Source of the DNA: an uncultured Bacteroidales bacterium
Lineage (GTDB): Bacteria; Bacteroidota; Bacteroidia; Bacteroidales; P3
DNA: 37,488 bases
Direction of reading: 5' to 3'
NCBI GenBank assembly: GCA_900315335.1
Contig: OMYR01000047.1
Coordinates: 1-37,488 of the forward strand
In this document: piece by piece, positions 6,347 through 31,000 of the stretch
How the letters are laid out: the number at the start of each line of letters is the position of its first letter
Position numbering within the stretch: position 1 is the stretch's first letter
The notes under the pieces: generated by a model
The model's database searches: none
Seen by the model: the letters and a program-made list of their open reading frames with translations, nothing else
What the model was told of the DNA's origin: nothing
Translations under genes and position numbers: made by a program

Positions 6347-6451
6347 AATGTTTAACAGCAGAAAAATAATGTGAGTGATTAATAAATTAGTGTTAAACAT
6401 CAGTAAAATAATCAGGGACACTATTTTACTAATATCACTGATTATTTTTAT
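6347..6451. repeat. 21-bp modular repeat array A (5 units)
   Basis: Five contiguous 21-bp units begin at 6347, 6368, 6389, 6410 and 6431. Each is a 5-bp half-site, a 3-bp core and an opposing 5-bp half-site, then an 8-bp AT spacer. The 13-bp parts are AATGT-TTA-ACAGC, AATGT-GAG-TGATT, AGTGT-TAA-ACATC, AATCA-GGG-ACACT and AATAT-CAC-TGATT. The array starts 29 bp past the stop of the TrmH-type gene. The rest of the 450-bp gap (6031-6480) is AT-rich, holds the tRNA promoter and a 7-bp stem at 6226-6244, and shows no gene. Confidence 0.85.
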
Positions 6452-6480
6452 GGTTTGAAATAAATACTTTTTACAGAGTA

Positions 6481-7017
6481 TTACAGATTTTTTATTTGCT
6501 TAAAAATTTCCCATAAAGTTATACCACAAGAAACGCTTACGTTAAACGAATGTTTTGTTCCTATCTGTGGGATTTCTATAACGTTATCACTTAAATCTAT
6601 CGCCTCTTGATTGACTCCCTCCACCTCATTGCCGAGAATTAAAGCGATAGGCGTCTGTTCAACTTTGAAATCTTGCAACATTATGGAGTTTTGCGTTTGT
6701 TCCAATGCTATCATTTGATAACCTTTTGCCTTCAAATCTTTAACGCAATCTATGGTTGAGGTGCAGTATTGCCAACTTACGCTCTCCGTTGCCCCAAGTG
6801 CCGTTTTGTTTATCTCTCTATGCGGTGGCGTTGCCGTAATTCCGCAAAGGTACAAGCCCTCCAAACGAAACGCATCGGCCGTACGAAACATCGAACCGAT
6901 ATTCGACATACTGCGAATGTTATCCAAAATCAATACAATAGGAGTTTTTTCTGAGGATTTGTATTGTTCAACCGATATTCGGTTCAACTGCTCCATTGAC
7001 AACTTCTTTCTTTCCAT
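6481..7017 (-). CDS. SpoU/TrmH-family RNA 2'-O-ribose methyltransferase
   Basis: The 178-residue protein has all three SPOUT motifs of the SpoU class: NIRSMSNIGSMFRTAD (motif 1, catalytic Arg and Asn), IALILGNEVEGV (motif 2) and IPQIGTKHSFNVSVSCGI (motif 3). Together these form the knotted SAM site. There is no N-terminal substrate-binding domain, so it is close to the minimal catalytic core. The target, a tRNA or rRNA ribose, cannot be told from the sequence. It follows the second GldN-like gene after 10 bp and is probably the last gene of that operon. Array A lies just downstream. Confidence 0.88.
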   Translation of the reverse strand: MERKKLSMEQLNRISVEQYKSSEKTPIVLILDNIRSMSNIGSMFRTADAFRLEGLYLCGITATPPHREINKTALGATESVSWQYCTSTIDCVKDLKAKGYQMIALEQTQNSIMLQDFKVEQTPIALILGNEVEGVNQEAIDLSDNVIEIPQIGTKHSFNVSVSCGITLWEIFKQIKNL

Positions 7018-7027
7018 ACTTAGTAGG

Positions 7028-7987
7028 TTAAAGTTTATTATTTCGTGAAATCCTTACGCCAAGTTGAGAAAATATTTTTTCGTCATAAGGATATAACGGC
7101 AAAAAATACTGAACTTTCTTTAATATTTCGAGATTGTATGGTTTTATCGACCAATTCTCCGCAATTCTTACCGCTGTCAAATCTTCGGGTGTCAAATCAG
7201 TGTAAGTGTTTATGAGTTTTTCATTTCCCGTTTGCTCATCTTCAACCATTGCAGTACCTTTCAAGACAAACAAATCGTCTATCTCTTTTGGCGAAGAGAA
7301 CTCACTGCCGTCTGAATGCAATACACGGATTTTTTTATTCTGAACATTGTCGAAAATACTTGCAGTAAATGGCATCTTTACGGGATATTTCAGTTCCAAA
7401 ACACTCAAAACCGTATCGGGAATGTCTATCGCATTTCTGTCTATCGGCTTTTTAGGATTGTCTTTCAAGGTATCTTTTGGAAAAATCCAAAAAAGCGGCA
7501 TCTGAACGGTATCCTTACCTTCTTCGCTAAACGATTTGTAATGGACAATATAAGGTTGATAGGCTATTACTTGCTTATCAATAGTCAAATTCTTGTAGTT
7601 GTATGTTACTGCTTCCTCAAAATCGTATGCAGATATGTAAGGAACGATAAAATCCAACACATTTTTTTTATCAACAATGTTACCGCACTTTTTCTCAAAG
7701 GCTATGATTTGGTTTATAATGGTGTCCAAATTCAATTCACGCTTTCTGTTGTCGTAAATCTTGACACGCTTTTCTTTTACTCCCTGCAAAATTATTTTTG
7801 CCAACTCTTCACGAAAATATCCGGTCAAATGCTCATATTTATTAGGGTTTAACGAATGAGATATTTCCCATTCGGGATTGAAAACACCTACTTTGTGAGT
7901 TTCGTATTCAATACTGTAATCGGCTTTTTGTGCATTCAAAGAAATTATTGCCGACAAGAGTAATATAATCAAAGATAACTTTTTCAT
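7028..7987 (-). CDS. GldN-like secreted protein, second of a tandem pair
   Basis: The 319-residue protein has a cleavable signal peptide (MKKLSLIILLLSAIISLNAQ). It has no other membrane segment, so it is periplasmic or outer-membrane associated. Two places match the GldN pattern 'aromatic-rich strand, K-I/V, Y/A..P': TYNYKNLTIDKQVIAYQP and VRIAENWSIKPY followed by KKVQYFLPLYP. GldN/PorN is a periplasmic ring component of the T9SS. The match is faint and the protein could be a divergent paralogue with another role. I chose the ATG at 7987 over a GTG one codon upstream. The gene abuts its upstream paralogue (3-bp gap), so they are co-translated. Confidence 0.45.
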   Translation of the reverse strand: MKKLSLIILLLSAIISLNAQKADYSIEYETHKVGVFNPEWEISHSLNPNKYEHLTGYFREELAKIILQGVKEKRVKIYDNRKRELNLDTIINQIIAFEKKCGNIVDKKNVLDFIVPYISAYDFEEAVTYNYKNLTIDKQVIAYQPYIVHYKSFSEEGKDTVQMPLFWIFPKDTLKDNPKKPIDRNAIDIPDTVLSVLELKYPVKMPFTASIFDNVQNKKIRVLHSDGSEFSSPKEIDDLFVLKGTAMVEDEQTGNEKLINTYTDLTPEDLTAVRIAENWSIKPYNLEILKKVQYFLPLYPYDEKIFSQLGVRISRNNKL

Positions 7988-7990
7988 CAC

Positions 7991-9172: not shown

Positions 9173-10471
9173 TCAAAAAGCATTTTGGTTTATTGCAGTC
9201 ATTTCGACGTATAGTAATTTAGAAACTTGCTGCCAAAAACTTGGAAAAGACTTTGCAACACAAGAGGGGTTTTTTATTTCTACTCCTCTGCAAATAAGAG
9301 CAATAGCACTCAACGACATTGCTATGCGGTGGTCGTTGTATGTTTCAAAAACAAAGGTTTTGGTTTTCAATTGCTCCATATCAAAATCCCTGCTTTGCTG
9401 TTTAATAATCAAATCATCGCCGTCTTGATAGCAACGATTGTCTATTTTATTGAGTTCCGTTATCATATTTTTCAATCTGTCGGACTCTTTAACTCTCAGA
9501 CTTGCAAGGTTTTTTAATATTGCAGACTTACCGGACAAAAAACAAGCAACAGCTAACGGACAGAACAAATCGGGTGTTGCTATCAAATCAAATGAATACG
9601 CTGTTTTAGTGTTAAACATCGTTTCATTACTGTTTAACACTGCTCCATTAGTGTTAAACACCGTTTCAACACCTAATTGCCAAAACATCTCGACACAAGC
9701 GAAATCGCCTTGCAAAACACTTGTTTGCAATCGGTTAATAAAAATATTTTTTAATTTTCCTACAAAAACATAAAGGTAAATAAATGCTGCGGAAGAATAA
9801 TCTTGTTCTACATTAAAAGCATTAAATTTATATTGCGACTTACTGCAAATTAGACTTTTAACATCTTTTTTGATATTTCCGCCGAAACTATTTACCAAAT
9901 TAATAGTCATATCAATATACGGCATTGAACTCTGTCTGTTCGGCAATACCAATTTCAATTCTCCCTTGATACAAGGCGATATTAAAAGCAATGCACTGAC
10001 GATTTGGCTTGTTAAGTTTTCGTCAATATAAATAGGTGTCTTTATCGCCGATAATTCTTTACCTACAATGGTTATAGGAAAAATATTTTTCTTATCAGAC
10101 ATTTGAATATCCGCACCCAATTGTTGCAAAATTTCTATGAGTGGTTGCAGCGGTCTATCCAACATACGACTATCTGCATCTATTATCCACTGACCTTTTT
10201 TCAAAGACAAAAACGCTAAAAGAAAACGTAGAGTTGTTCCTGCATTACGACAATTAAACGCGTTATTTGTTTTGTTTGCAGATGCTTGTAAAAAATCTTG
10301 CAGCATCACTGTATCTTCCGATGTGGAAAGATTTTCGATTTCCAAATCGCTATTCGACAAATATTTTATGATAAGTAAGCGGTTGCTTATGCTTTTTGAC
10401 GAAGGTATTTCGATTGTAATATTCCCTGATATATTCTCTTTTCTTTTCAAAAGAATACTTCCGTAATACAT
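9173..10471 (-). CDS. aroA: 3-phosphoshikimate 1-carboxyvinyltransferase (EPSP synthase)
   Basis: The 432-residue enzyme transfers enolpyruvyl from PEP to shikimate-3-phosphate in aromatic amino-acid synthesis. Family motifs are present in order: SSKSISNRLLI (24-34), NAGTTLRFLLAF (76-87), LDRPLQPLI (104-112), DYSSAAF (224-230), PDLFCPLAV with the catalytic Asp at 301, RVKESDRL and NDHRIAMSLSAIAL. Its start overlaps the stop of the sigma-54 activator gene by one base (TAATG), so the two are translationally coupled. The oddity is residues 268-291. Three heptapeptides of the form V/M-F/L-N-T/S-N/K-x-x lie just before the catalytic Asp and are encoded by repeat array B (9608-9670). This is otherwise a normal-length enzyme, so the insertion seems to be tolerated. 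Confidence 0.95.
   Translation of the reverse strand: MYYGSILLKRKENISGNITIEIPSSKSISNRLLIIKYLSNSDLEIENLSTSEDTVMLQDFLQASANKTNNAFNCRNAGTTLRFLLAFLSLKKGQWIIDADSRMLDRPLQPLIEILQQLGADIQMSDKKNIFPITIVGKELSAIKTPIYIDENLTSQIVSALLLISPCIKGELKLVLPNRQSSMPYIDMTINLVNSFGGNIKKDVKSLICSKSQYKFNAFNVEQDYSSAAFIYLYVFVGKLKNIFINRLQTSVLQGDFACVEMFWQLGVETVFNTNGAVLNSNETMFNTKTAYSFDLIATPDLFCPLAVACFLSGKSAILKNLASLRVKESDRLKNMITELNKIDNRCYQDGDDLIIKQQSRDFDMEQLKTKTFVFETYNDHRIAMSLSAIALICRGVEIKNPSCVAKSFPSFWQQVSKLLYVEMTAINQNAF
9608..9670. repeat. 21-bp modular repeat array B, inside aroA (3 units)
   Basis: Units begin at 9608, 9629 and 9650 with 13-bp parts AGTGT-TAA-ACATC, ACTGT-TTA-ACACT and AGTGT-TAA-ACACC. The spacers are less AT-rich (GTTTCATT, GCTCCATT, GTTTCAAC) than in the intergenic arrays. 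The 21-bp period keeps frame in aroA and yields the tandem heptads VFNTNGA, VLNSNET and MFNTKTA on the minus strand. Confidence 0.88.
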
Positions 10472-11716: not shown

Positions 11717-12796
11717 CTACATTAAATATCTGAAAGGCAACAAAATAATTTCTAAAATCTTCTCAATATTCGGACGTTGTTTCCATTGCTCGTAATCAAA
11801 ATCCTTGCTATATTTCTCTGTGTAGGAATAATGCTCTTGAAGTTGGGACAAAATAGATTTTTCCTTGCCGACCAAAGCCAATTCATATTGATAACGAAAA
11901 CTTCTATAATCAAAATTTGCGGAAGATATAGAGAAAATCTCATCATCAACCATAAGACTTTTAGCATGCAAGTTTGCAGGCACATAGAACTTAAATTTAA
12001 CTCCAGCATTGTACAAAATACCACTGTAATGCCTACGAATAATATCCACAACTCTCACATCGGAATGATAAGGTACGTGTATCGTTACATCAACACCCCT
12101 TTGAGCGGCGTCCATCAACTCTTTTCTCAAACCATGACCGGGAAGAAAATACGGAGTCTCCACAATAACTTTCTTTTTTGCTTCACGGATAAGTTTTTCG
12201 TATTTGGTTTTTATTCTTTGTCGCACGCTATCAGGGTATTCCTGAATAAAAATCCAATCTCCCACGTGATAACTTTTGTTACTTGCCACCATAGGTATAT
12301 CGTACTTGTTATACGTGCGAAAAGAATCCCTAAAACTTCTACGAAATATGGTTAAAAGTTTCAAATCAGTAGTCCTAAGATTCAATTCTCTCCAAGAAAC
12401 GCAGTAAGCAGTGATGTTAGAAGAACCAATATACGCAATCTCCGAATCTATGATAAGTAATTTTCTATGGTTTCTACAATGATTTTTTGCCAATAATCCT
12501 TTTGTCAAACGCACCTTTCGATACAATCTTATCTCAACACCTGCGTCTATTAACGGTTGGAAATAAGTTAAATCGCTTTTAGTTCCCCACGCATCGAGAA
12601 GCAATTTAATCAAAACACCTTCTTTTGCTTTTTTGTACAATGCCAAAAGAAATTTGTCGCCCATTGCTCCCCTGCCGAAACGAAATGTTTCCAAAAATAT
12701 AACACGCTTTGCCGAATTAATGTCGTCAAGCATCGCGTCATAAAGTTTTAGATTGTCGTCAAAGAGGATATATTTTTCGTTCTTATTGTCCAACAT
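11717..12796 (-). CDS. Phospholipase D-family cardiolipin synthase-like protein
   Basis: The 359-residue protein has two HKD motifs: NHRKLLIIDSEIAYIGSSN (His110, Lys112, Asp117) and LHAKSLMVDDEIFSISSANFD (His277, Lys279, Asp284). Both are complete, so the two-step phosphatidyl transfer of PLD-type cardiolipin synthases is possible. It lacks the N-terminal membrane hairpin of ClsA and resembles the shorter ClsB/ClsC layout; it probably binds the inner membrane peripherally. The ATG at 12796 is preferred to a TTG three codons upstream, and a consensus promoter lies at 12823-12853. It heads a probable operon with the sigma-54 activator and aroA. Confidence 0.85.
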   Translation of the reverse strand: MLDNKNEKYILFDDNLKLYDAMLDDINSAKRVIFLETFRFGRGAMGDKFLLALYKKAKEGVLIKLLLDAWGTKSDLTYFQPLIDAGVEIRLYRKVRLTKGLLAKNHCRNHRKLLIIDSEIAYIGSSNITAYCVSWRELNLRTTDLKLLTIFRRSFRDSFRTYNKYDIPMVASNKSYHVGDWIFIQEYPDSVRQRIKTKYEKLIREAKKKVIVETPYFLPGHGLRKELMDAAQRGVDVTIHVPYHSDVRVVDIIRRHYSGILYNAGVKFKFYVPANLHAKSLMVDDEIFSISSANFDYRSFRYQYELALVGKEKSILSQLQEHYSYTEKYSKDFDYEQWKQRPNIEKILEIILLPFRYLM

Positions 12797-12822
12797 CTTT
12801 ATCAAATATATAATATACTCTG

Positions 12823-12853
12823 CAAAAGTAAAACGATTTTTTCAAACAACCAA
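12823..12853 (-). promoter_or_regulatory. Promoter of the cls - activator - aroA operon
   Basis: On the minus strand TTG (12853-12851) is followed after 20 bp by TACTTTTG (12830-12823), matching TTG-N20-TAnnTTTG. The start site would be near 12817, about 20 bp before the cls ATG. Confidence 0.65.
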
Positions 12854-12990
12854 ATTTATCATTAGTTTTTTAGTATTAGTTACTTCTTTGCAATTACTAA
12901 AAAAAGTCTTTTCACAACTAAAATTTTCTAAAAATATACCCCTTGAAAAACAAGTTATAAACAAGGCAAAATTTTTATGTATTTTCGCAA

Positions 12991-13053
12991 AAATAATCAC
13001 TCACATTAGAAAAATAGTGTGAGTGATTATTTTATTAGTGTTTAACACTAATT
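12991..13053. repeat. 21-bp modular repeat array C (3 units), forming a strong hairpin
   Basis: Units begin at 12991, 13012 and 13033, give or take one base, with 13-bp parts AATCA-CTC-ACATT, AGTGT-GAG-TGATT and AGTGT-TTA-ACACT. Units 1 and 2 are near-perfect reverse complements, so 12990-13008 and 13015-13033 form a 19-bp stem with one mismatch and a 6-base loop. The third unit is a near-palindrome itself (13034-13052). The array lies downstream of the FAD/Fe-S oxidoreductase gene and may end its transcript. The remainder of the 382-bp gap (12797-13178) is AT-rich and shows no gene. Confidence 0.85.
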
Positions 13054-13178
13054 TTGTCTTTTTACATTCTTTGATATTCAATGTATTACAAAGGAGATTT
13101 TTCAGCCTTTTCTTTGTGTTTTTTGCACTCGAAATTCAAAATATAACATAAAAACTTTCAAAGATTGATATTACAACA

Positions 13179-16094: not shown

Positions 16095-16110
16095 CACAAT
16101 TATTTTTCAG

Positions 16111-16118
16111 CAAATTTA
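16111..16118 (-). promoter_or_regulatory. Probable -7 element for the FAD/Fe-S oxidoreductase gene
   Basis: TAAATTTG on the minus strand fits TAnnTTTG and is about 17 bp upstream of the ATG. No TTG is seen at the expected distance, so support is partial. Confidence 0.45.
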
Positions 16119-16192
16119 CAACTTTTTAACTATTTACGCCTCGCCAAACTCACAAAGCAAAGAAATATGAACGCTTTTCTATTGATTTGTTG

Positions 16193-16200
16193 TAATTTTG
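16193..16200 (+). promoter_or_regulatory. Probable -7 element for wbpD
   Basis: TAATTTTG on the plus strand fits TAnnTTTG and lies 53 bp before the wbpD ATG. It sits back to back with the divergent element at 16111-16118. A TTG at the normal -33 distance is not present. Confidence 0.45.
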
Positions 16201-16253
16201 CAACGATTGAAAAATAATAAAAAACATCGGTTAAACAGATACAAAAAAATAAT

Positions 16254-16850: not shown

Positions 16851-16860
16851 CTAATTTACT

Positions 16861-16986
16861 AATTGCTCTATTCAATAAATTAGTTTCACTAAATATTTTA
16901 TTGATTACTGTGATTAGTAAATTAGTTTCACTGATTATTTTATTAGTGTTTAATACTATTTTGCCAATGTTTAACATTATTTGCAG
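16861..16986. repeat. 21-bp modular repeat array D (6 units)
   Basis: Six contiguous units begin at 16861, 16882, 16903, 16924, 16945 and 16966. Their 13-bp parts are AATTG-CTC-TATTC, AGTTT-CAC-TAAAT, GATTA-CTG-TGATT, AGTTT-CAC-TGATT, AGTGT-TTA-ATACT and AATGT-TTA-ACATT. A degenerate partial unit reaches back to the wbpD stop codon. The array fills most of the gap between the convergent wbpD and queG genes. Confidence 0.87.
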
Positions 16987-17036
16987 GATTTCAGTAATAA
17001 AAAACTGCAAACGTAATTTGCCGATAATATCAAATG

Positions 17037-17957: not shown

Positions 17958-17958
17958 A

Positions 17959-21630: not shown

Positions 21631-21654
21631 AATTATTCCCGTTATTTTATTCTG

Positions 21655-21662
21655 CAAATATA
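21655..21662 (-). promoter_or_regulatory. Probable -7 element for dnaE
   Basis: TATATTTG on the minus strand fits TAnnTTTG and predicts a start site near 21648, just upstream of the ATG at 21630. This argues against the alternative TTG start at 21657. A clear -33 TTG is missing. Confidence 0.5.
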
Positions 21663-21738
21663 CAAAAATTACTTTTACTTACCCTCTAACAAGATAGAAG
21701 ATTGCAAAGACAAAATTCAAACGACGGATACGAAAAAT

Positions 21739-21822
21739 AATCACTCATATCAGTAAATTAGTGTGGGACACTAATAAATTAATCTCAATAACTAATTTAC
21801 CAATGTCCCTAACTAATTCGCT
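21739..21822. repeat. 21-bp modular repeat array E (4 units)
   Basis: Units begin at 21739, 21760, 21781 and 21802 with 13-bp parts AATCA-CTC-ATATC, AGTGT-GGG-ACACT, AATCT-CAA-TAACT and AATGT-CCC-TAACT. Units 2 and 4 have complementary cores (GGG and CCC). The array lies 62 bp beyond the stop of the T9SS cargo gene and upstream of the dnaE promoter. Confidence 0.87.
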
Positions 21823-21883
21823 ATCTATGCATAACTAATGTTACGCAGGTATATACACAAAAGTCGAATTGCCTTACAAATGA

Positions 21884-23416
21884 TTATTCAACTATCAATT
21901 TATTATTTTCAACATTTGAGCCGTCTTGGATTTGTAAAACATAAGTACCTTTTGGTAATGTACTCAAATCAATTGATATTTTAGACTGGTTTGCAGGTAT
22001 TTGCAATGTTTTAACAACTACTCCGAAGTTATTGATAATATTTATAACTCTTTTGTTTGCAATAGGTTGTAAATTTACAACGATAGTGTTTTTAGCTGGA
22101 TTGGGAAAGATTTCCGTTTTACGTATATTTGATACTTCATCAATACTTGAACTTACTGTAATCTTAGTTGTTACGATGCTGTCGCAACCATTTATACTTT
22201 GGAGAGTATCAATGTATGTTCCTTTCTTGGTATATGTGTTGTTTCCAACGATATAAGACTCACCCTTTATGATATTTACCGTTGTATCTACTTTATATAC
22301 AGGATTTACAATAAGATTTAATGCAATAATACTATCGCAACCATAATAATTTTGTAGAGTGTCAAAATATTCTCCTGACTTTGACAATTCATTATCTGCA
22401 AACAAATACGTTTCGCCTTCACAAATTTCAGCAATAATCGGCTCAACTGATTGGTTTACAGGATATATTATAAGCGTATATAACACTATGCTATCGCAAC
22501 CGGTTATTGCAAAAAGGGTGTAATTTATCGATAACATGGTAACTGTATCTACATTTTTCTTTCCATAATTAGTTCCGTCAGATAATACAAAATCTTGATT
22601 GGAACATATAGAAGTGTCTTTGGCTGTATAAATTATGGGATTGACTGCCAATTGCAGATAAACGACACTATCGCAATTGTTTTCGGTTTGTAACGTATCG
22701 CAATACAAACCTGATAACATTATTTGTTTTTCATTAAAAGTATATGTATTACCCTCACAAATAGTGTCTTTCAAAAGAGTTGGGACACCTTTCAAAACTA
22801 TGTTATCCACAATAGCACCCGGCATAGTACCACTTGTATTGTCGTTACGCCAAACAAAGACAAGATAAACCTGAGAACACGAAAAAGTATTCTTTATTTT
22901 AGATACAATATGCTTTTGCCCATTAGTAATTGAAAGATAGACATTACCGTCATCAAAAACAAAAGCACTGTCTTTGTAGTATGGTGCTGTAAAACCAGTA
23001 TATGAGGTCAAAGAATTAGGAAAAGACATATTGAAATTTTTTGGCAATACCATAACTTTCAAATAATCCTTCGTACCCTCTCCACCTATATTGACATCAA
23101 ATTCTATTTGCAGAGTATCACTTGCAATCAACTCTATTTCTCTGTATGCTAATGATATAGATGAAGAAGTTTTACTATAAGCAGTATCGCTGCTGTTGTT
23201 TGAAACAAATAAACGATAATTATCATTGTCGTTTGTGTTTATCGTCCATTTATTCTTGCCCGAAGAATGTTTGAATTGCCAAAGATTGTTTTCATTTGTA
23301 TCTTGAAAATCACAAGAATATATTTCCATTAAATTTATTGTGTCATTATCTGCAAACAAAGTAGTTACGCTTGCAAATAACAACACAATAAAAAAGTTTT
23401 TCAGTAGAGTTTTCAC
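21884..23416 (-). CDS. Secreted T9SS cargo protein with repeat domains and C-terminal sorting domain
   Basis: The 510-residue protein has a signal peptide (KTLLKNFFIVLLFASVTTLFA). A jelly-roll-like region follows (about 30-215). Then come four repeats of about 55-60 residues ending in 'G/N-CDS-I/V-V..L.L.V.P', with DT-ICEGNTYTF-type beginnings; the last is more degenerate. The C-terminal 80 residues form a type A T9SS sorting domain: EIFPNPAKNTIVV, then VVVKTLQI, LSTLPKGTYVLQI and a final KLIVE. It should be exported by T9SS and either anchored to A-LPS or released. Translation begins at GTG, since no ATG precedes the signal peptide. The gene starts 24 bp after sppA and may share its transcript. 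Confidence 0.9.
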   Translation of the reverse strand: MKTLLKNFFIVLLFASVTTLFADNDTINLMEIYSCDFQDTNENNLWQFKHSSGKNKWTINTNDNDNYRLFVSNNSSDTAYSKTSSSISLAYREIELIASDTLQIEFDVNIGGEGTKDYLKVMVLPKNFNMSFPNSLTSYTGFTAPYYKDSAFVFDDGNVYLSITNGQKHIVSKIKNTFSCSQVYLVFVWRNDNTSGTMPGAIVDNIVLKGVPTLLKDTICEGNTYTFNEKQIMLSGLYCDTLQTENNCDSVVYLQLAVNPIIYTAKDTSICSNQDFVLSDGTNYGKKNVDTVTMLSINYTLFAITGCDSIVLYTLIIYPVNQSVEPIIAEICEGETYLFADNELSKSGEYFDTLQNYYGCDSIIALNLIVNPVYKVDTTVNIIKGESYIVGNNTYTKKGTYIDTLQSINGCDSIVTTKITVSSSIDEVSNIRKTEIFPNPAKNTIVVNLQPIANKRVINIINNFGVVVKTLQIPANQSKISIDLSTLPKGTYVLQIQDGSNVENNKLIVE

Positions 23417-23440
23417 CTTTTTAAGCCTATAAAGGCATTA

Positions 23441-25228
23441 TTAGAAGTTAATAATATAATCCATTCTCATCTGTACTCCCTGCATTTGGGCTATATCACG
23501 CAGTTGTAAGAAGAAAGTATAAGGTTTGCCCAATTCCTTTGTCAATGACTTCATCTTGACTTCGTTGGATTGAGTATCTATAAATTGAGCAAATATACCT
23601 TGTATTTTAGGATATGTAATAATTCCATAAGATTTAAGATTTACTTTGGCAGCAGCCACTTGTATCGCTTTTTTCAATCCACCAAACTCATCTATAAGTC
23701 CCAATGGTTTAGCATCTACCCCACTCCACACTCTACCTTTGGCAATGGTGTTGATGTATTGAGGAGTTTTTCCTCTGCCTTGTGCGACCTTTGTAATGAA
23801 ATTAGTATAGAAATTCTCAACGTTTCGCTGCATCATCATCTTTGCATCGGCTGTCATAGGCGTTGTAACACTTATCGGATTGCTATTACTGTGTGTTTTT
23901 ACTGTGTCAAACGTTATGCCTATTTTGTTTTTCAACGCTCTATTGAAATTAGGTAACACCCCGAAAACTCCAATAGAACCCGTCAGAGTTGTTTGATTTG
24001 CAACTATATAAGAAGCATTTGACGACATCTCATAACCTGCCGAAGCAGCCATATCGCCCATTGAAACTATGACAGGTTTCTTTCTTTTGGCTTTGATAAC
24101 TTCGTTTGTTATAAGTTCAGATGCTATCGCATCGCCACCGGGAGAATTTACCCTTAATACTATAGCTTTAACTTTGTCGTTATTTGCTGCTTTTTCAATA
24201 GCCTTACAAACCGTTTCGCTACCTATACTCAAATCACTTCCTTTACCTTGATTAACATCGCCATAAGCATACACAATAGCAATATTATCCGTTTGTACCT
24301 TATTCATATCGGCTATTGTTTTCCTATATGCACCATATGAGATATAATTAATCTTTGAATTTTTGGAAAGTTTATTTTGAGCAATAACATATTTATTTAT
24401 AGTATCCTTATAATCGGATTTGAAACCAAGATAATCAATCAATTTGTTCTTATAAGCATCTTGCGGAAGAAATCCTTGTAAGGACGCAACTAAATCATTA
24501 AATTTCGTTTCGTTTATATTTCTTGATGCAGCAATCTGCGAAGACAATACACTCCAAATAGAAGTCAGATATTGGCGTGTTTGCACCCTATTGGAATCTG
24601 ACATATGGTTCATAATATATGTTTCACCTGCGGATTTGTAAGCATTATTCGTTGGACGTATCAAATCGACGTCAATATCCAATTTATTAATCAAATCCTT
24701 ATAATACATAACCTCACCGCCCATACCTGACAAGGTAAGCATACCGGCAGGATTTAACATAATCTTATCAGCAACGGTTGCAACATAATAAGACTTTTGG
24801 TCAATCATATCTCCATACGCGTAAATCTTTTTACCAGAAGTTTTGAAATCCTGTAATACCTCTCTTATTTCTTGTGCAGTTGCCATACCGTTTGCTTGGA
24901 ACACCGAAAGGTTAAGCATTATGGCTTTAATATTTTTATCATTCTTTGCTTTGTCTATAACTTGAATAAACTCAGTAAGACCTATTGCCTTATTGTTTAT
25001 TCCGTCTGCCGAAAACATAGATGAAATATCTTCAACCTCTCTATCATATATCGGATTGGATAAATCAACAAGCAAAACAGAATTATTTTTTACCGAAATA
25101 TCATCGGAACTCTTACCAATAGAAGCTATTATTGAGGAGATAATTCCAAGAATTAAGAAAAAAGAAATTATCATCGCCAAACCGCTTCCTAAACACGAAG
25201 CAAAAAGGAACTTGAAAAACTGTTTCAT
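23441..25228 (-). CDS. sppA: Signal peptide peptidase SppA, 67K type (protease IV)
   Basis: The 595-residue serine protease is anchored by one N-terminal membrane helix (about residues 15-38). It has the duplicated S49 layout: the general-base lysine lies in the N-terminal repeat (NNAYKSAGETY, Lys198) and the nucleophile in the C-terminal repeat (SMGDMAASAGYEMSS, Ser396). The strand VLRVNSPGGDAIASE forms the oxyanion region. It degrades cleaved signal peptides at the inner membrane as a tetramer. The ATG at 25228 is chosen over a TTG at 25240. It is followed by the T9SS cargo gene and separated from hutU by a terminator-like hairpin. Confidence 0.94.
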   Translation of the reverse strand: MKQFFKFLFASCLGSGLAMIISFFLILGIISSIIASIGKSSDDISVKNNSVLLVDLSNPIYDREVEDISSMFSADGINNKAIGLTEFIQVIDKAKNDKNIKAIMLNLSVFQANGMATAQEIREVLQDFKTSGKKIYAYGDMIDQKSYYVATVADKIMLNPAGMLTLSGMGGEVMYYKDLINKLDIDVDLIRPTNNAYKSAGETYIMNHMSDSNRVQTRQYLTSIWSVLSSQIAASRNINETKFNDLVASLQGFLPQDAYKNKLIDYLGFKSDYKDTINKYVIAQNKLSKNSKINYISYGAYRKTIADMNKVQTDNIAIVYAYGDVNQGKGSDLSIGSETVCKAIEKAANNDKVKAIVLRVNSPGGDAIASELITNEVIKAKRKKPVIVSMGDMAASAGYEMSSNASYIVANQTTLTGSIGVFGVLPNFNRALKNKIGITFDTVKTHSNSNPISVTTPMTADAKMMMQRNVENFYTNFITKVAQGRGKTPQYINTIAKGRVWSGVDAKPLGLIDEFGGLKKAIQVAAAKVNLKSYGIITYPKIQGIFAQFIDTQSNEVKMKSLTKELGKPYTFFLQLRDIAQMQGVQMRMDYIINF

Positions 25229-25253
25229 AATATTTATCAATTATAAAATCAAA

Positions 25254-25300
25254 ATGGCAAAAAGCAGTAATCAAGAAATCAAAACACTACTTTTTGCCAT
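25254..25300 (-). terminator. Stem-loop terminator after hutU
   Basis: A perfect 11-bp stem (ATGGCAAAAAG with CTTTTTGCCAT, 25254-25264 and 25290-25300) encloses a 25-base loop and is followed on the minus strand by a T-rich stretch. It lies 38 bp after the hutU stop and before sppA. Confidence 0.6.
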
Positions 25301-25337
25301 AAACATTATTTTTTATATTAGTTTCACGTGAATTTGA

Positions 25338-27335
25338 CTACAAAAGTGAATCAATAAACTTCTCGTCAGTCAAATTAGGCAATGTAACAGTAAGGTTAGG
25401 GTTCAAATCCATAGCACGTTTAATTGCAAACATCGCACCTTCGTTTCTTGCCCAAGAACGACGTGAAATACCATTATTAACATCCCAATAAAGCATATTG
25501 GTAATTCTGCGGTCTGATTCAGGAGTGCCATCGATAGCCATACCAAAGCCACCATTGATTACTTCTCCCCAACCAACGCCACCACCATTGTGGATACTTA
25601 CCCAAGTTGCGCCACGGAAAGAATCTCCAATAACATTCTGAACTGCCATATCGGCACAGAATTGAGAACCATCGTAGATATTTGAAGTTTCTCTGAAAGG
25701 AGAATCCGTACCGGATACATCGTGGTGGTCTCTACCCAATACTATCGGAGCAGATATTTTACCCTCACGTATTGCTTTATTGAAAGCCAATGCAATCTTT
25801 GTTCTACCTTCACAATCTGCATAAAGAATTCTTGCCTGCGAGCCTACAACCAAATGATTTTCCTTAGCACCTTTAATCCATTGAATATTATCTCTCATTT
25901 GTTGCTGTATCTCTTTTGGAGAGTTCTTTGCGATTTCTTCCAATACCTCCATTGCAATGTGGTCTGAGGTATCCAAATCTTCCGGTTTGCCACTTGTACA
26001 AACCCAACGGAATGGACCAAAACCATAATCGAAACACATAGGTCCCATTATATCCTGAACGTATGAAGGATACTTAAACGTTCCGTCTTCTTTCATAATG
26101 TCGGCACCTGCACGGCTTGATTCCAATAGGAATGCGTTACCGTAATCAAAGAAATACATACCGTTTGCAGCCAATTTATTGATAGCAGCAACATGACGAC
26201 GCAAAGTTTTTTCTACTTCTTTTTTGAATTGCTCAGGATTGTCAGCCATCATTTTCTGACTTTCTTCCAAAGTTAAACCAACAGGATAATAACCGCCGGC
26301 AAACGGATTATGCAACGAAGTTTGGTCGCTACCTAAATCAACTTTGATGTTCTTTTCAGCAAGATACTCCCACAAATCAACAACATTACCGTCGTATGCA
26401 AACGATACAACTTCCTTGTTTTCCTGAGCTTTCTTAACTCTTGCCATCAACTCGTCAAGATTGGAATAAACCTCATCAACCCAACCTTGTTCTTTTCTCT
26501 TATATGTTGCCTTTGGATTGATTTCTGCTGTAATGGAAACAACACCTGCAATGTTACCTGCCTTTGGTTGAGCACCCGACATACCACCCAAACCTGCGGT
26601 AACAAACAATTTACCTGCCAAGCCTTCGCCGTGTTTGGAAACTTTTCTTCCTGCATTCAAGACAGTTATAGTCGTTCCATGAACAATACCCTGAGGACCT
26701 ATGTACATATAAGAGCCGGCAGTCATCTGACCATACTGAGATACACCCAAAGCATTGTAACGTTCGTAATCGTCTTGTTTTGAATAGTTAGGAATAACCA
26801 TACCATTTGTAACAACAACTCTTGGAGCCTCTTTATGAGAAGGATATAATCCCATAGGATGACCGGAATACATAACCAAAGTTTGCTCGTCGGTCATAGT
26901 TGCCAAATACTTCATAGCCAAACGATATTGAGCCCAATTCATAAAAGCAGCACCATTTCCGCCATAAACTATTAACTCATGCGGATGCTGTGCAACAGCA
27001 GGGTTCAAATTGTTCTGTATCATCAGCATTATAGCAGCAGCCTGACGAGATTTTGCAGGGTATTCATCAATACTACGTGCGTACATATCATAATCAGGAC
27101 GATAACGATACATATAAATTCTACCGTAAGTCTCCAATTCTTCCAAAAACTCAGGAGCAAGTTCTGCATGAAATTTTTGAGGAAAATATCTTAAAGCATT
27201 CTTCAAAGCAAGTTTCTTTTGTTCCTTAGTAAGTATATCCTTACGTTTAGGAGCATGATTAATAGTCGTATCATAAGGTTTTTTAGCCGGCAAATAATCC
27301 GGAATACCTTCCAAAATTGCTTGTTTAAAATCCAT
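25338..27335 (-). CDS. hutU: Urocanate hydratase
   Basis: The 665-residue NAD-dependent urocanase catalyses the second step of histidine degradation, urocanate to imidazolonepropionate. Family blocks are seen: HELIVYGGNGAAFMNW, YSGHPMGLYP, GLGGMSGAQPKAGNIAG (NAD binding), the active-site region FDYGFGPFRWVCTSG with its catalytic cysteine, and HNGGGVGWGEVINGGFGM. The longer 660-670-residue form is usual in Bacteroidota. No hutH, hutI or ftcD gene is adjacent, so the pathway must be encoded elsewhere or be incomplete. A -7-like TAATTTTG is at 27395-27388. Confidence 0.96.
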   Translation of the reverse strand: MDFKQAILEGIPDYLPAKKPYDTTINHAPKRKDILTKEQKKLALKNALRYFPQKFHAELAPEFLEELETYGRIYMYRYRPDYDMYARSIDEYPAKSRQAAAIMLMIQNNLNPAVAQHPHELIVYGGNGAAFMNWAQYRLAMKYLATMTDEQTLVMYSGHPMGLYPSHKEAPRVVVTNGMVIPNYSKQDDYERYNALGVSQYGQMTAGSYMYIGPQGIVHGTTITVLNAGRKVSKHGEGLAGKLFVTAGLGGMSGAQPKAGNIAGVVSITAEINPKATYKRKEQGWVDEVYSNLDELMARVKKAQENKEVVSFAYDGNVVDLWEYLAEKNIKVDLGSDQTSLHNPFAGGYYPVGLTLEESQKMMADNPEQFKKEVEKTLRRHVAAINKLAANGMYFFDYGNAFLLESSRAGADIMKEDGTFKYPSYVQDIMGPMCFDYGFGPFRWVCTSGKPEDLDTSDHIAMEVLEEIAKNSPKEIQQQMRDNIQWIKGAKENHLVVGSQARILYADCEGRTKIALAFNKAIREGKISAPIVLGRDHHDVSGTDSPFRETSNIYDGSQFCADMAVQNVIGDSFRGATWVSIHNGGGVGWGEVINGGFGMAIDGTPESDRRITNMLYWDVNNGISRRSWARNEGAMFAIKRAMDLNPNLTVTLPNLTDEKFIDSLL

Positions 27336-27387
27336 TTTCTATTATTTTTTAATTATCTTATTCTTTCAAGTCTATGATTTCAACCTG

Positions 27388-27395
27388 CAAAATTA
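27388..27395 (-). promoter_or_regulatory. Probable -7 element for hutU
   Basis: TAATTTTG on the minus strand fits TAnnTTTG and lies 53 bp upstream of the hutU ATG. The -33 position is TTC, not TTG. The rest of 27336-27533 is very AT-rich. An 8-bp inverted repeat at 27455-27462 and 27513-27520 might end the DUF1573 transcript. Confidence 0.45.
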
Positions 27396-27533
27396 AGAAA
27401 TTTTTACTATATTCTGAAAAGATATAAAATAATTTTGTCAAATATATAAAACAATGAAATCGAAGCCACGATTAATTAATAATTAATTCGATTATTAATC
27501 AATCTATGACACCGATTTCACACAAAATAAAAC

Positions 27534-27947
27534 TTATTCTACTACTTTACCTTTTATTTTAAGTATTAATTTGTTATCATTTATAGAATTGTTTCTAACA
27601 AGTATAGTCTTCTTGAAATCTCCGACTTGCTCTGTATTATACGTAACAGTCAAAGCAGTGGTATCATCGGCAGCAATCTCTTTTCTATTTATTGCCACAA
27701 CGGTACAACCGCAAGAAGTTACCACTTCGCCAATATGCAATGGTTTTTTACCAACATTGTAAATAACAAAAGTACATTTGGCTTCGCTGTTTTGTTTAAT
27801 TGTATTAAAATCATATTCCAATGTACTTACCCCTATTCTTGGCGGTACTTTCTTCTTATATATTGAAAATCCAAGTTGCATACCAAATATAACTATTATA
27901 CCAATAAGGCATATAATTACTATCTTCTTTTTATTTTTTTCTTTCAT
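27534..27947 (-). CDS. DUF1573 domain protein, membrane-anchored
   Basis: The 137-residue protein has one N-terminal membrane helix (IVIICLIGIIVIFGMQLGFS, about residues 9-28) and a periplasmic DUF1573 Ig-like domain: EYDFNTIKQNSEAKCTFVIYNVGKKPLHI, then VVTSCGCTVV and LTVTYNTEQVGDFKKTI. The SCGCT motif is typical of the family. DUF1573 proteins are abundant in Bacteroidota and their function is not known. The gene overlaps the upstream lipoprotein gene by 17 bp and is the last of three small co-directional genes. Confidence 0.82.
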   Translation of the reverse strand: MKEKNKKKIVIICLIGIIVIFGMQLGFSIYKKKVPPRIGVSTLEYDFNTIKQNSEAKCTFVIYNVGKKPLHIGEVVTSCGCTVVAINRKEIAADDTTALTVTYNTEQVGDFKKTILVRNNSINDNKLILKIKGKVVE

Positions 27948-28167
27948 AATTTATTTCCTCTAATTTTATAATTATACAAAAACTATCCATATCAAAAGCA
28001 TAAACAAGAGTATCTGCTATCCTATTATAGGTTGCAACAACCTTATTTGGGGAACTTACAGCAGATTTCACTATACTTTTAGTCAAATCTTCATTGTCAT
28101 CATTATTACATGAGACAAAAACAAACATGCTAATAAATAGCACTGTGAAAAAATTTTTTCTTTTCAT
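27931..28167 (-). CDS. Small putative lipoprotein
   Basis: The 78-residue product has a lipoprotein signal (KRKNFFTVLFISMFVFVSC) with a cysteine at position 18 followed by NNDDNED, acidic residues at the start of the mature chain. The remaining 60 residues show no family I recognise. An ATG seven codons upstream (28188) is possible, but the ATG at 28167 gives a normal signal length. It lies 23 bp after the upstream gene and overlaps the DUF1573 gene, so the three genes look like an operon. Confidence 0.6.
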   Translation of the reverse strand: MKRKNFFTVLFISMFVFVSCNNDDNEDLTKSIVKSAVSSPNKVVATYNRIADTLVYAFDMDSFCIIIKLEEINYERKK

Positions 28168-28190
28168 TTTAGTTAATGTTTTTAACATTA

Positions 28191-28607
28191 TTAATATTTA
28201 ATTTGCCAAAATTGGCATTTAATTTTAAAAATTTCAAATATTTCCGAATACTGTTTTTCACCTAAACTTCCATTATGAAAATATAAAACTTTCTTATCAG
28301 GAGACAAAAGATACTCGGTCGGCATAAGTCCAATATCCATTATTTTACTCAAACCGACAGCAGAATAAGAAAAACCATCTATCCCATATTTTAACGACTC
28401 TTGTTTTAATCTATTTATATCGGAAGCAAAAGAATTTATACAAATAACTCTTATTCCGTTTTGTTCAAAAATAGTTTTACCGTAATCTTGTTTTTCTTTT
28501 TTAACCACTTCAAACCATAACTTACCATAACTTACAACTCGTACAACTATAAAACCAAAAATATAATAAAGTAAAACCATTGTAACTTCCAATCGTCGTA
28601 GTATCAT
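28191..28607 (-). CDS. Small membrane-anchored protein of unknown function
   Basis: The 138-residue product has an N-terminal hydrophobic helix (VLLYYIFGFIVVRVV) followed by a soluble part. The segment GLMPTEYLLSPDKKVLYFHNGSLGEKQ resembles the end of thioredoxin-like TlpA proteins ('PT.YLLSPD.KVL...G'), but no CxxC motif is present. It may therefore be a redox-inactive thioredoxin fold. The start is taken at the ATG at 28607 rather than a TTG two codons earlier; another ATG at 28580 would shorten the N-terminus. It is first in the operon with the lipoprotein and DUF1573 genes. Confidence 0.5.
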   Translation of the reverse strand: MILRRLEVTMVLLYYIFGFIVVRVVSYGKLWFEVVKKEKQDYGKTIFEQNGIRVICINSFASDINRLKQESLKYGIDGFSYSAVGLSKIMDIGLMPTEYLLSPDKKVLYFHNGSLGEKQYSEIFEIFKIKCQFWQIKY

Positions 28608-28624
28608 TATCAATAAAATTTAAT

Positions 28625-28708
28625 AGATACTGATGCCAATAAATTAGTGTGAGACACTAATCCGCTGATGTTAAACATTAGTAAATTAGTATTAAACACT
28701 AATTTCAT
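28625..28708. repeat. 21-bp modular repeat array F (4 units)
   Basis: Units begin at 28625, 28646, 28667 and 28688 with 13-bp parts AGATA-CTG-ATGCC, AGTGT-GAG-ACACT, GATGT-TAA-ACATT and AGTAT-TAA-ACACT. The array sits 49 bp past the stop of the 28758-29360 gene and fills most of the gap to the next gene start. Confidence 0.86.
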
Positions 28709-28757
28709 AAAAATACTTGAAAAATTATTGATATTATTAAAGGATAAAATTAGAAAA

Positions 28758-29360
28758 TTATTCGTTGGAGTAAATTAGAACACGACTATTATTCCATGAT
28801 GATTTCCATTCTTCTTGTGAAATTATATCACCGTTAATATCCAAACTTTCAAAGTTTTGATTCTTTTTTATAACTTTTGCTCTGCCTTGAATGATTATAT
28901 TTTCTATTTCTTTGAAAACAAGTGATTTATCTTCAATAGTTTTACTAAGAGAAATTCCTAAATCATTGTTAAATAAATCCATAGCCATTCCAACACTATC
29001 ATAACCACTTAAAGGCTTTTGAGTGAAAACGTAGTAATTGTAATTTTCATAAATCTCCCCTATTCTTCTTGCGTTCTCCTCACCTATTTCAATTGAAAGA
29101 CTATACATCCAATATATATGACGAAAAGCATCAAACTTTCCACCCTCGGAATTTCCACCAAAAAATTTCTCATTATCCAAACTATCCATAGTTTTCATAA
29201 CATCCTTTGAAATATTAATGGCAGTCATAACGGAATTGTAATGTCCCACCACCCAAAACTTATCTTTTGAACTCATACTCTTATAAATTGCCTTAAAATT
29301 TTGAGCAGACAAAAAAATTGAAGAAAACAAAAAAATAAAAAATAGTAAATTCCTTTTCAT
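28758..29360 (-). CDS. Secreted protein with an 'AFRH..W' DUF6973-like domain
   Basis: The 200-residue product has a signal peptide (KRNLLFFIFLFSSIFLSAQ). Its central block KFDAFRHIYWMYSLSIEIGEENARRIGEIYE and the later SVGMAMDLFNNDLG recall a domain with conserved 'DAFRH..W', a helix with E..A...G..HE and 'MD..NN..G'. I associate this with DUF6973 and similar domains in secreted Bacteroidota proteins. The conserved His, Glu and Asp suggest a metal or catalytic site, but no activity can be assigned. It is a single gene, with array F downstream and the nadA terminator upstream. Confidence 0.5.
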   Translation of the reverse strand: MKRNLLFFIFLFSSIFLSAQNFKAIYKSMSSKDKFWVVGHYNSVMTAINISKDVMKTMDSLDNEKFFGGNSEGGKFDAFRHIYWMYSLSIEIGEENARRIGEIYENYNYYVFTQKPLSGYDSVGMAMDLFNNDLGISLSKTIEDKSLVFKEIENIIIQGRAKVIKKNQNFESLDINGDIISQEEWKSSWNNSRVLIYSNE

Positions 29361-29412
29361 CATTCAACCAATAAAATTTTTCAAAGCATAAAAAAACAAC
29401 ACAAAAAATAAA

Positions 29413-29473
29413 CTCTGAGAAAAGAATAATCAAGGTAGTTGATAATACACTAAAAAATATTCAATTCTCAGAG
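29413..29473 (-). terminator. Possible terminator after nadA
   Basis: A 9-bp stem (CTCTGAGAA with TTCTCAGAG, 29413-29421 and 29465-29473) encloses a 43-base loop and is followed on the minus strand by TTTATTTTTT. The long loop lowers certainty. Between it and the nadA stop (29474-29547) the sequence is simple TTAATTAA-like text. Confidence 0.45.
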
Positions 29474-29547
29474 GTTTTAATTAATTAAATTTATTAATTA
29501 TAACAATTATTAATCAATAAATTATAAATTAATTATAAAACACGAAT

Positions 29548-30501
29548 TTATTTGATAATTCCAAGTTTTTTACTTATTTCAAGCATTTTTTCTATCGGCT
29601 TTCTTGCATCTGCAATAATTTGTTCATCTAAATTGATTTCGTACTTCTCTTCTTCCAATGAAGCAAGAACTTTTTCCATAGTGTTCAACTTCATATGACG
29701 ACAATCGTTGCAAGCACAACTTGGATTTTGAGTAACGACAACAAAGTTTTTATCCGGATTATCATTTTGTAATTTATGCAAGATTCCATTCTCCGTTGCC
29801 ACAAGGAAATTCTTCTCTTTACTCTCTTTTACAAATTTTATCATTCCTTGCGTAGAACCTACATAATCTGCCAACTGCAAAACAGCATCATTACACTCCG
29901 GATGTGCAATCATTACATAATTCGGATACTGCTGTTTCATCTTCAAAGTATATTCGGCAGTAAGCAAATCATGAACTTCACAACTTCCGTGATACAACAC
30001 CATATTTCTTCCGGTCATACGGTTGATGTATCCACCAAGATTTTTGTCGGGAGCAAATATAATCTTCTGATTCTTCGGTAAAGAATTTACAATTTGCAAA
30101 GCATTGCCCGAAGTACATATTATATCACTTAAAGTCTTTATCTTAGCACTGCAATTGACGTATGATATAACAATATGGTTGGGATATTGAGCCTTGAATT
30201 GCTTAAACTCTTCGTATTGACAACTGTCTGCAAGAGAACAACCTGCATTCAAATCCGGAATTATTACTTTCTTTTTCGGGTTAAGAATTTTTGCCGTTTC
30301 GCCCATAAAATGAACTCCGCAAAACAATATTATACTTTTATCGGTTTCAACTGCCTTTTGTGCCAACGCCAATGAGTCTCCAACGTAGTCGGATATATCT
30401 TGAATTTCAGGTATTTGATAATAATGTCCAAGTATTACGACATCCTTTTGTTTTTTCAGTTGAAGAATTTTTTCTTTAATATCCGCAGCCATTTTTAACA
30501 T
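29548..30501 (-). CDS. nadA: Quinolinate synthase
   Basis: The 317-residue 4Fe-4S enzyme condenses iminoaspartate with dihydroxyacetone phosphate to quinolinate in NAD synthesis. Three pseudo-repeats are visible, beginning VVILGHYYQIPEIQDISDYVGDS. Cluster ligands and family blocks are also seen: VNCSAKIKTLSDIICTS, MVLYHGSCEVHD and NPSCACNDCRHMKLNT. A second ATG three codons in (30492) gives a more usual N-terminus. nadB and nadC are not adjacent. A TAATTTTG element lies at 30604-30597, about 96 bp upstream. Confidence 0.95.
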   Translation of the reverse strand: MLKMAADIKEKILQLKKQKDVVILGHYYQIPEIQDISDYVGDSLALAQKAVETDKSIILFCGVHFMGETAKILNPKKKVIIPDLNAGCSLADSCQYEEFKQFKAQYPNHIVISYVNCSAKIKTLSDIICTSGNALQIVNSLPKNQKIIFAPDKNLGGYINRMTGRNMVLYHGSCEVHDLLTAEYTLKMKQQYPNYVMIAHPECNDAVLQLADYVGSTQGMIKFVKESKEKNFLVATENGILHKLQNDNPDKNFVVVTQNPSCACNDCRHMKLNTMEKVLASLEEEKYEINLDEQIIADARKPIEKMLEISKKLGIIK

Positions 30502-30563
30502 TTGATTTTTTATTATTTATTCTTTTTATATAAAATAATAATATTTAATATATTTGTTAATTA

Positions 30564-30587
30564 TGTTGATAAAATTTTGTATCAACA
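30564..30587 (-). promoter_or_regulatory. Inverted repeat in the nadA leader
   Basis: TGTTGATA (30564-30571) and TATCAACA (30580-30587) form an 8-bp stem with an 8-base loop. They lie just downstream of the -7-like TAATTTTG at 30604-30597, so the hairpin would be in the nadA leader RNA. It overlaps one of the TTATCAACA sites and could be an operator or part of an origin array. Confidence 0.4.
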
Positions 30588-30874
30588 TTCGCTGTGCAAA
30601 ATTAATATATTTATCAACAATTTTATTATAAAACTGAAAATTTTCAAATTAGTTATTATTAAAAGATTAAACAAATAATATTTATTTTATCAACACAATT
30701 AACACTATTGTTTATAATTTTATTAACAGTGTTTGAAATGTTGATAATAAGTGTTAAAACTGTTGATTTTTTGTATGTTTTTTAACAATGTTGAGTGAGT
30801 GATATTTTTGAAAACATTAAAATAACATAGTTATTAACAATTTTTTTGTGGATTTCTATTATTGTCATTAAAAT

Positions 30875-31000
30875 AATATTTAATCTTGTATTTCTGATTA
30901 TTGAGATTGGTAAATTAATCATTGAGATTAACAAAATAGTGTTAAACATTATTTTACTAATCATTGAGATTATTTTGCTAATGTTTAACACTAATTTTTT
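30875..31000. repeat. 21-bp modular repeat array G (6 units)
   Basis: Units begin at 30875, 30896, 30917, 30938, 30959 and 30980. Their 13-bp parts are AATAT-TTA-ATCTT, GATTA-TTG-AGATT, AATCA-TTG-AGATT, AGTGT-TAA-ACATT, AATCA-TTG-AGATT and AATGT-TTA-ACACT. A weaker unit may precede at 30854. Two units are identical over the 13-bp part. This is the only array lying between divergent genes. Confidence 0.87.

Follow-up and report, generated by a model that had tools for sequence, protein, structure and literature searches.

Interspersed arrays of a 21-bp module in an uncultured Bacteroidales bacterium: a repeat family with likenesses to REP/BIME and Rickettsia palindromic elements

What kind of element are the short tandem arrays scattered through a contig of this uncultured Bacteroidales bacterium, and what holds their letters and their register? 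In the window (the whole stretch analyzed, 37,488 nucleotides of contig OMYR01000047.1), a preliminary description had reported seven arrays, A to G, with about 31 units in a strict 5-3-5-8 bp architecture: a half-site, a free core triplet, an inverted half-site, and a spacer. All seven arrays are present, with about 28 units among them. Twenty-five units depart from the three half-sites by at most 2 mismatches, and the weaker units at 16882, 21781, and 30896, although each has 3 mismatches, retain T3/A11 and stay in register. The starts formerly given to D (16861), F (28625), and G (30875) are each one unit too early, the 13-mers there having 5, 6, and 3 mismatches, respectively, with T3 or A11 missing. 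The arrays and the gene that hosts one of them are as follows.

6347..6443, no strand assigned: array A, 5 units; same place in Bacteroidales bacterium Phil12
9173..10471, minus strand: aroA (EPSP synthase), host gene of array B; NCBIfam aroA match
9608..9662, no strand assigned: array B, 3 units, in frame within aroA; peptide VFNTNGAVLNSNETMFNTK
12995..13049, no strand assigned: array C, 3 units, of which units 1 and 2 are an inverted pair
16882..16978, no strand assigned: array D, 4 units preceded by a weaker one, flanked by convergent genes
21739..21814, no strand assigned: array E, 4 units, one of them weak
28646..28700, no strand assigned: array F, 3 units
30896..30992, no strand assigned: array G, 4 units preceded by a weaker one, flanked by the divergent genes nadA and rpiB

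Array A is flanked by a tRNA-Ser and by the gene (stop at 6481) for an RlmB-like methyltransferase. The location of array B inside aroA had been overlooked; the gene matches NCBIfam aroA with E 3e-80 and 270 bits, against a curated cut-off of 287.

The 21-bp register stands out against controls. Runs of at least three in-register units occur 6 times in the window, as compared to a mean of 0.02 and a maximum of 1 in 50 Markov-1 controls. In contiguous stretches of this genome totaling 77,488 nt, a half-site detector found 16 arrays at period 21; the other periods in the range 15–32 yielded between 0 and 2 apiece. Forty Markov-1 runs gave a mean of 0.125 and a maximum of 1, and the sequence reversed without complementing gave 3. 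The preliminary observation is confirmed, subject to some corrections. A detector restricted to the 8-bp part (two copies of A.TWWA.T at a 21-bp distance, overlaps counted), applied to 190,523 nt of this genome's loci, returned 37 matches where about 4 were expected; at eight alternative spacings the count was 1 to 5. After extension, arrays comprise 3 to 6 units of 21 bp.

The 5-3-5-8 grammar and the exchangeable core triplets were likewise borne out, with a matching frame in the sister species G001. "Strict", however, overstates the case, since units are missing in places and some length changes are not of 21 bp (array D, L027:39). The core is exchangeable but not wholly free: 158 of 170 units draw on five triplet pairs (TAA/TTA, GAG/CTC, CAC/GTG, CCC/GGG, or TTG/CAA). 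Many units are non-palindromic (e.g., AATGTGAGTGATT), and the mean self-match of units is 7.48 of 13, compared to 7.82 for a unit against the reverse complement of units elsewhere. Each module contains two dyads, RRTSWNWNWSAYY (13 bp) and ANTWWANT (8 bp), whose centers in the consensus, at 7 and 17.5, are 10.5 bp apart; both parts vary within restricted alphabets.

Comparison with Phil12, which is ∼95% identical and shares the family, shows where letters are held. A first constraint test was exposed to ascertainment bias and was redone on cells where changes stay detectable (816 kept, 108 dropped), with column groups chosen after viewing the consensus and the first test. On these terms, half-site columns 1, 3, and 11 had changed in 0 of 185 cells and columns 2, 4, 10, and 12 in 29 of 262; columns 1, 3, 5, 9, 11, and 13 together had changed in 8 of 371, as compared to 308 of 3628 (8.5%) in the flanks (p 1.4e-6). 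The core is also less changed than the flanks (8 of 183), which is unexpected for a free core. Conserved spacer columns (16 of 208) were not clearly slower than the other columns (23 of 208), and arrays overall (91 of 1340) diverge near the flank rate. The zero count at columns 1, 3, and 11 and the 10.5-bp dyad spacing argue, indirectly, for protein binding; no binding protein was found. Such fixation could also arise by homogenization among copies, without binding.

Thirteen of 16 arrays occupy the matching location in Phil12. Whole 21-bp units have been gained or lost at L077:11217 and L077:14916, array D shows several small indels, one core of array E is GGG here and TAA in Phil12, and the two outer half-sites of array C are both changed together. 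The surroundings of array F are duplicated and rearranged in Phil12, and a synteny break with ∼8.8 kb extra in Phil12 falls inside an array. No clean empty site was found between the two genomes: of 19 Phil12 array calls, 10 have an array here, 6 were unframeable, and 3 lack one, of which one is a spurious detector hit within a gene and the others lie in rearranged sequence. Intergenic arrays were compared with Phil12 alone; positions 12000-31200 of the window match nine genus genomes in pieces only. Beyond this pair, the frame recurs in G001, where the outer letters and spacer are retained with different cores (GCG, CGC, GGC, GCC). In the remainder of the GTDB family, matches were at chance-like level. 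Viral contigs searched for the paired TTA-type pattern gave 0 matches. Within this genome, blocks are shared among loci: a three-unit stretch is common to 68 of 1431 array pairs, as compared to 7.4 (maximum 19) after permutation of units, and a two-unit stretch to 158 pairs, as compared to 57 (maximum 80).

With one ORF caller, 49 of 54 arrays lie between ORFs, 1 inside, and 4 at stretch edges. Among 198 array calls, 20 rows fall in ORFs of at least 150 aa, a figure that mixes two thresholds and includes overlaps (L078, L114, L143), two orthologous pairs (AroA, FtsX-like), detector noise (L053:15152, L054:8747, L158:6298), a weak two-unit case (L154), and possibly false or extended ORFs (L078:16757, L116, L135, L044). 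The in-gene claim rests on AroA, AroC, and an MBL-fold hydrolase, in each of which the array is in frame and relatives were compared. In AroC it amounts to about 20 extra residues (G007, matched in two pieces, was left out of the alignment), and in AroA to zero extra residues relative to most relatives; in the MBL-fold comparison, G008 and G010 gave no match. An SBP_bac_5 protein also carries an in-frame array, and HTH and L145 proteins are further candidate cases.

Mycobacterial MIRU minisatellites are dispersed tandem units that vary in number, as the units here do, but they are longer and are not known to have the half-site grammar. The earlier statement that no described repeat class compares was too strong, as REP/BIME, Rickettsia palindromic elements (RPE), and tandem-repeat MITEs are near kinds. 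REP/BIME are described as high-copy, mostly intergenic, regularly spaced clusters in both orientations that serve as protein-binding sites (PMC2817692; PMC3733652). The present arrays are likewise many short repeats clustered mostly outside genes; they differ in being AT-rich 21-bp modules with many alternative units, without the GTAG or CGTC tag described at one repeat end (PMC3733652) and without a Y1 transposase. No conserved tetranucleotide was seen in the 24 bp outside the 108 ends of 54 arrays, only an A-rich AAAAWT, and Y1_Tnp (PF01797, RAYT) matched 0 of 14 genus genomes while matching 5 of 14 control genomes. We thus reject a REP transposase as the agent; CGTC REPs, too, are described as lacking a dedicated transposase (PMC3733652). 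RPE are reported to occur in frame in unrelated metabolic genes, with a length of about 150 bp (PMC10969869). The three compared in-gene cases (AroA, AroC, MBL-fold hydrolase) resemble them in this respect. The family differs in consisting of tandem 21-bp modules rather than a single element, in lying mostly between genes and, in AroA, in adding no length relative to most relatives. BrickBuilt of Porphyromonas gingivalis is described as a 23-nt tandem repeat at dispersed loci, in 19 copies, always intergenic, with a leader and tail with inverted ends (PMC4596501). It belongs to the same order and also has a period of about two helical turns, whereas some of our arrays lie within genes and no leader or tail was observed (columns beyond the edge spacer are weakly conserved, ≤0.65 bits).

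CRISPR was rejected, there being no constant repeat with unique spacers of fixed length: the 13-bp and the 8-bp part both vary. The G001 matches listed lack GTTAAAC, which we take to fit an integron attC core, and attC was rejected. An Rfam search of the window gave nothing above gathering score except three tRNAs. Sites of lox type have 13-bp arms flanking an 8-bp crossover, the geometry found in these arrays, and the synteny break noted above would suit a tyrosine recombinase; but the arms are not constant and PF00589 occurs in 13 of 14 genus genomes with or without arrays, so recombinase sites are extremely improbable. We reject such an enzyme as the agent, and no mobilizing gene was found among these two families. 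Nearly as improbable is that the array primarily encodes a peptide repeat, with heptads like KIVLNTN, and that its intergenic copies are dead genes. Each strand has one frame that is fully open in many of the 54 arrays (57% and 65%), as compared to 11–14% after shuffling and 0–2% in the other four frames; however, the open frame is a consequence of the unit consensus, most arrays lie between genes, and letters 1, 3, and 11 do not appear to correspond to the first two codon positions of a single amino acid pattern.

A more serious possibility, although an unlikely one, is that the arrays are maintained for the hairpins that a single strand can form, whether at RNA 3' ends or as ssDNA/cruciform, the half-sites being stem halves of adjoining units. 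Folding z averages −4.2 on both strands, and 76% of the 54 arrays score under −2. Chimeras built from the same units fold less stably, by ∼2 SD, than the arrays, but some of 60 chimera sets fold equally well. In three adjoining inverted pairs that carry rare letters, the partners fit one another at least as well as any unit elsewhere does (null mean 0.09), though one direct pair also met this rule. The coupled changes in array C favor pairing, and of the 27 arrays located in tandem gene pairs, 20 are closer to the upstream stop codon (p 0.019); there is, however, no preference for convergent regions (12 convergent, 27 tandem, 10 divergent). General complementarity of adjoining units was rejected, being matched in 778 of 2000 permutations, and so were intrinsic terminators, as only C of five arrays at positions 12000-31200 reaches the terminator score and the 12 terminator-like sites there barely differ from 10.3 in shuffles. 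The half-sites are marked by conserved letters rather than conserved pairing. Neutral minisatellites, which ectopic gene conversion and slippage would homogenize and which would have neither a bound protein nor a function, are about equally unlikely: whole-unit indels, block sharing, the whole-triplet swap in array E, and divergence near that of the flanks would all be expected, but fixation at particular alternate columns rather than module-wide, and outer letters and spacer kept around new cores in G001, are not predicted by plain homogenization. We also doubt that the modules are sites of a clade-specific protein assembling along DNA in two-turn steps and that these sites spread by drive, overwriting sequence in place, even in an enzyme gene such as aroA, until the half-sites are present, with the core triplets exchanged wholesale between species.

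The reading we prefer, with about even confidence and from sequence comparison, is that the arrays are a lineage-specific REP/BIME- and RPE-like repeat family, without a REP transposase, whose half-sites are probably protein-bound. Blocks of two to five modules would be copied or converted into new loci by some agent, modules would then expand and shrink via slippage or unequal recombination, and a half-site-binding protein, at steps of two helical turns, may preserve the fixed letters. A module of 21 bp spans seven codons, and one frame per strand mostly lacks stops, which would be why arrays are tolerated within genes. Its length is thus compatible with both helix and code, being two turns of DNA and seven codons. 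The density of the family in a scarcely studied genus of gut bacteria, together with two closely related species that share it and a sister species whose cores differ, makes it suited to asking how repeats spread without a REP transposase, what fixes some letters, and how peptide repeats come into conserved enzymes.

The window (GC ∼35%) is contig C13 of a 2.13-Mb assembly of 66 contigs, 98% complete, and carries a T9SS sorting domain at 21884-23416. All seven arrays (A-G) reported in the preliminary description are present; of the ∼31 units counted there, 25 were recovered at no more than two mismatches, with three weaker units in register. Over 77,488 nt of this genome scanned at periods of 15–32, 16 arrays were found at period 21 and 0 to 2 at each other period, as compared to a mean of 0.125 in Markov-1 controls and three arrays in the reversed sequence. 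Extending this density to 2.13 Mb gives an estimate of ∼440 arrays per genome, if the density holds. The 8-bp part of the unit, used alone as detector in this genome, led to the same register (37 versus about 4) and recovered T at column 3 in 89% and A at column 11 in 84%. The simplified consensus of 193 units is RRTSWNWNWSAYY-ANTWWANT, its two dyads 10.5 bp apart, a helical spacing.

Comparison with G002, a close genome of the same genus, shows how the units change. The G002 contigs C158, C53 and C109 probably correspond to records NWBO01000158.1, NWBO01000053.1 and NWBO01000109.1 of the MAG Bacteroidales bacterium Phil12; GTDB genus Phil12 is Candidatus Scybalousia of family P3, with mammalian guts as its habitat (PMC8957277). 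Thirteen of the 16 arrays in the window, L077 and L078 have a positional counterpart in G002 (from the window A, B, C, D, E and G; L077:11217, 14916 and 17374; L078:435, 2222, 7165 and 16736), and three (F, L077:4680 and L078:9728) have no clean pairing. Whole units are gained or lost: G002 has one more at L077:11217, and one is missing at L077:14916. Other length changes, in array D and of 13 bp at L027:39, are not multiples of 21. In array E one core is exchanged (GGG to TAA in G002), and in array C the outer arms differ together, AATCA to AATGT with TGATT to ACATT.

Divergence across 20 orthologous arrays is 6.8% (91 of 1340 sites), versus 8.5% in the flanks (308 of 3628). After removal of cells in which detection could bias the counts (108 dropped, 816 kept), no change was seen in columns 1, 3 and 11 (0/185), and T3 and A11 alone gave 0/122 (p = 3.6e-5). 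Columns 1, 3, 5, 9, 11 and 13 together changed in 8 of 371 cells, versus 37 of 445 in the seven remaining columns of the unit (p = 8.8e-5, Fisher test; p = 1.4e-6 relative to the flanks). Because of these counts, we conclude that particular half-site letters are kept, by selection or by homogenisation. The core had been described as free; in fact ten triplets cover 158 of 170 units, and since 8 of 183 core cells changed versus 29 of 262 in columns 2, 4, 10 and 12, the core is intermediate. Within the spacer, changes affected 16 of 208 cells in the conserved columns (14, 16, 19 and 21), versus 23 of 208 for the rest.

Among 1431 array pairs, shared two-unit stretches numbered 158 (57 permuted) and three-unit stretches 68 (7.4 permuted); therefore, blocks of units have moved or undergone conversion between loci. 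Of 19 array calls in G002, 10 have an array in the genome of the window, six were not framed and three lack one, these being detector noise in a gene and two cases in rearranged sequence; thus no clean empty site was found among the 19, six of them not framed. Rearrangement near arrays was also observed. Synteny with G002 breaks in or beside array L077:4680-4776 (at 4740-4796), where G002 has ∼8.8 kb more (C53:280258 to 289023). Two near-identical G002 arrays ∼1.5 kb apart (L054:6174-6270 and 7646-7742) lie at extra sequence with further gene copies relative to the window, an arrangement with the appearance of a duplication that has arrays at its borders.

RNA folding of 54 arrays gave an average z of -4.2 for each strand. 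Arrays gained ∼2 SD over same-unit chimeras, of which some sets fold equally well. TTA-type units are palindromes and GAG-type units are not; overall, self-complementarity within units (7.48/13) is no higher than between units (7.82/13), and neighbour complementarity is not special on average (778 of 2000 permutations reach the observed mean). For three pairs of inverted neighbours bearing rare letters, no unit at another place matches better than the two neighbours match each other (null mean 0.09); the same holds for one direct pair. Hairpins exist in a subset.

With ORFs called mechanically, the 54 arrays fell between tandem (27), convergent (12) or divergent (10) ORFs, inside an ORF (1) or at stretch edges (4), the shares of the three orientations resembling those of intergenic regions themselves (17, 11 and 10 in 77 kb). 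Between tandem ORFs, 20 of 27 arrays were closer to the upstream stop (medians 51 and 117 bp; p = 0.019). With another ORF caller, four of the 16 arrays in the contiguous stretches fell within ORFs; some of these ORFs appear spurious.

Several genes do contain modules. Array B lies in aroA, in a region two residues longer than in G010 and gap-free against the other eight of nine aligned relatives, so here the modules replaced pre-existing sequence rather than entering as an insertion. Chorismate synthase (AroC) of the genome of the window and of G002 has a ∼20-residue stretch, with heptads LVLNISE IVLNTDK IMLNTNF, absent from six aligned relatives. An MBL-fold hydrolase, whose nearest solved chain is 3kl7, a putative metal-dependent hydrolase, has four heptads over a stretch nine residues longer than in five relatives, and one Phil12 SBP_bac_5 protein carries heptads within its domain. 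A Phil12 helix-turn-helix protein (L143:636-1364) has at least five heptads of array peptide after the HTH domain (KIVSETN LPINETN QIIRDTN LLINDTN LPINDTN). One reading frame per strand is open throughout in 57% and 65% of arrays, versus 11–14% when shuffled; because the unit consensus alone accounts for this, it is compatible with, and not proof of, selection for translatability.

With array A as query against 41 genomes around the window, matches fell in same-genus G000 (the genome of the window), G001, G002, G008 and G011, plus one 27-base match in G040. A two-unit pattern matched 18, 35, 16 and 2 times in G000, G001, G002 and G008 among 190 family genomes, and once or twice each in G011, G055, G024, G171 and G190, with letters unlike the repeat family; read backwards, it matched four times in G000 and once in G175. 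The sister species G001 has GC-rich cores with outer letters and spacer unchanged. Paired TTA-type units were also sought in the GTDB genome collection, in a scan that may omit the genome of the window; it returned 51 stretches, 40 in Phil12 and 11 singles elsewhere. Among these 11, L141 (Alkalibacillus) gave a three-unit detector call, and in Flavobacterium aquicola, outside family P3 (L128:3364-3419), three intergenic TTA-type units spaced by 22 and 21 bp are visible by eye.

Other tandem units were also observed. A G001 run of ∼21-bp units beside a normal array (L048:689-827) alternates GTTTGACACT-like and CTTTACGACA-like forms. Short tandem arrays of 22-bp period, with runs of A and of T, occur in G008 and G001 (L055:343-404, L055:13746-13806 and L056:11494-11556); their unit is a different one and the period similar. 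Near the contig end, other tandem units of 21 and 23 bp make up a 112-nt inverted repeat (window positions 37234-37464) whose arms are separated by 7 nt; nothing similar was found among the loci compared.

No description of these arrays was found in searches of an open-licence library. We file them as a variant of dispersed palindromic repeats and as members of none of three known systems. They resemble REP/BIME in high copy number, place and clustering (PMC3733652, PMC2817692) but are without end tag and Y1 transposase; Rickettsia palindromic elements in having in-frame copies (PMC10969869), although size and build differ; and BrickBuilt in tandem repetition and Bacteroidales host (PMC4596501), but no leader or tail was seen here. 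Protein binding may be the cause of the letter constraint, blocks may be copied by some agent, and the seven-codon unit length would allow arrays to be tolerated inside genes.
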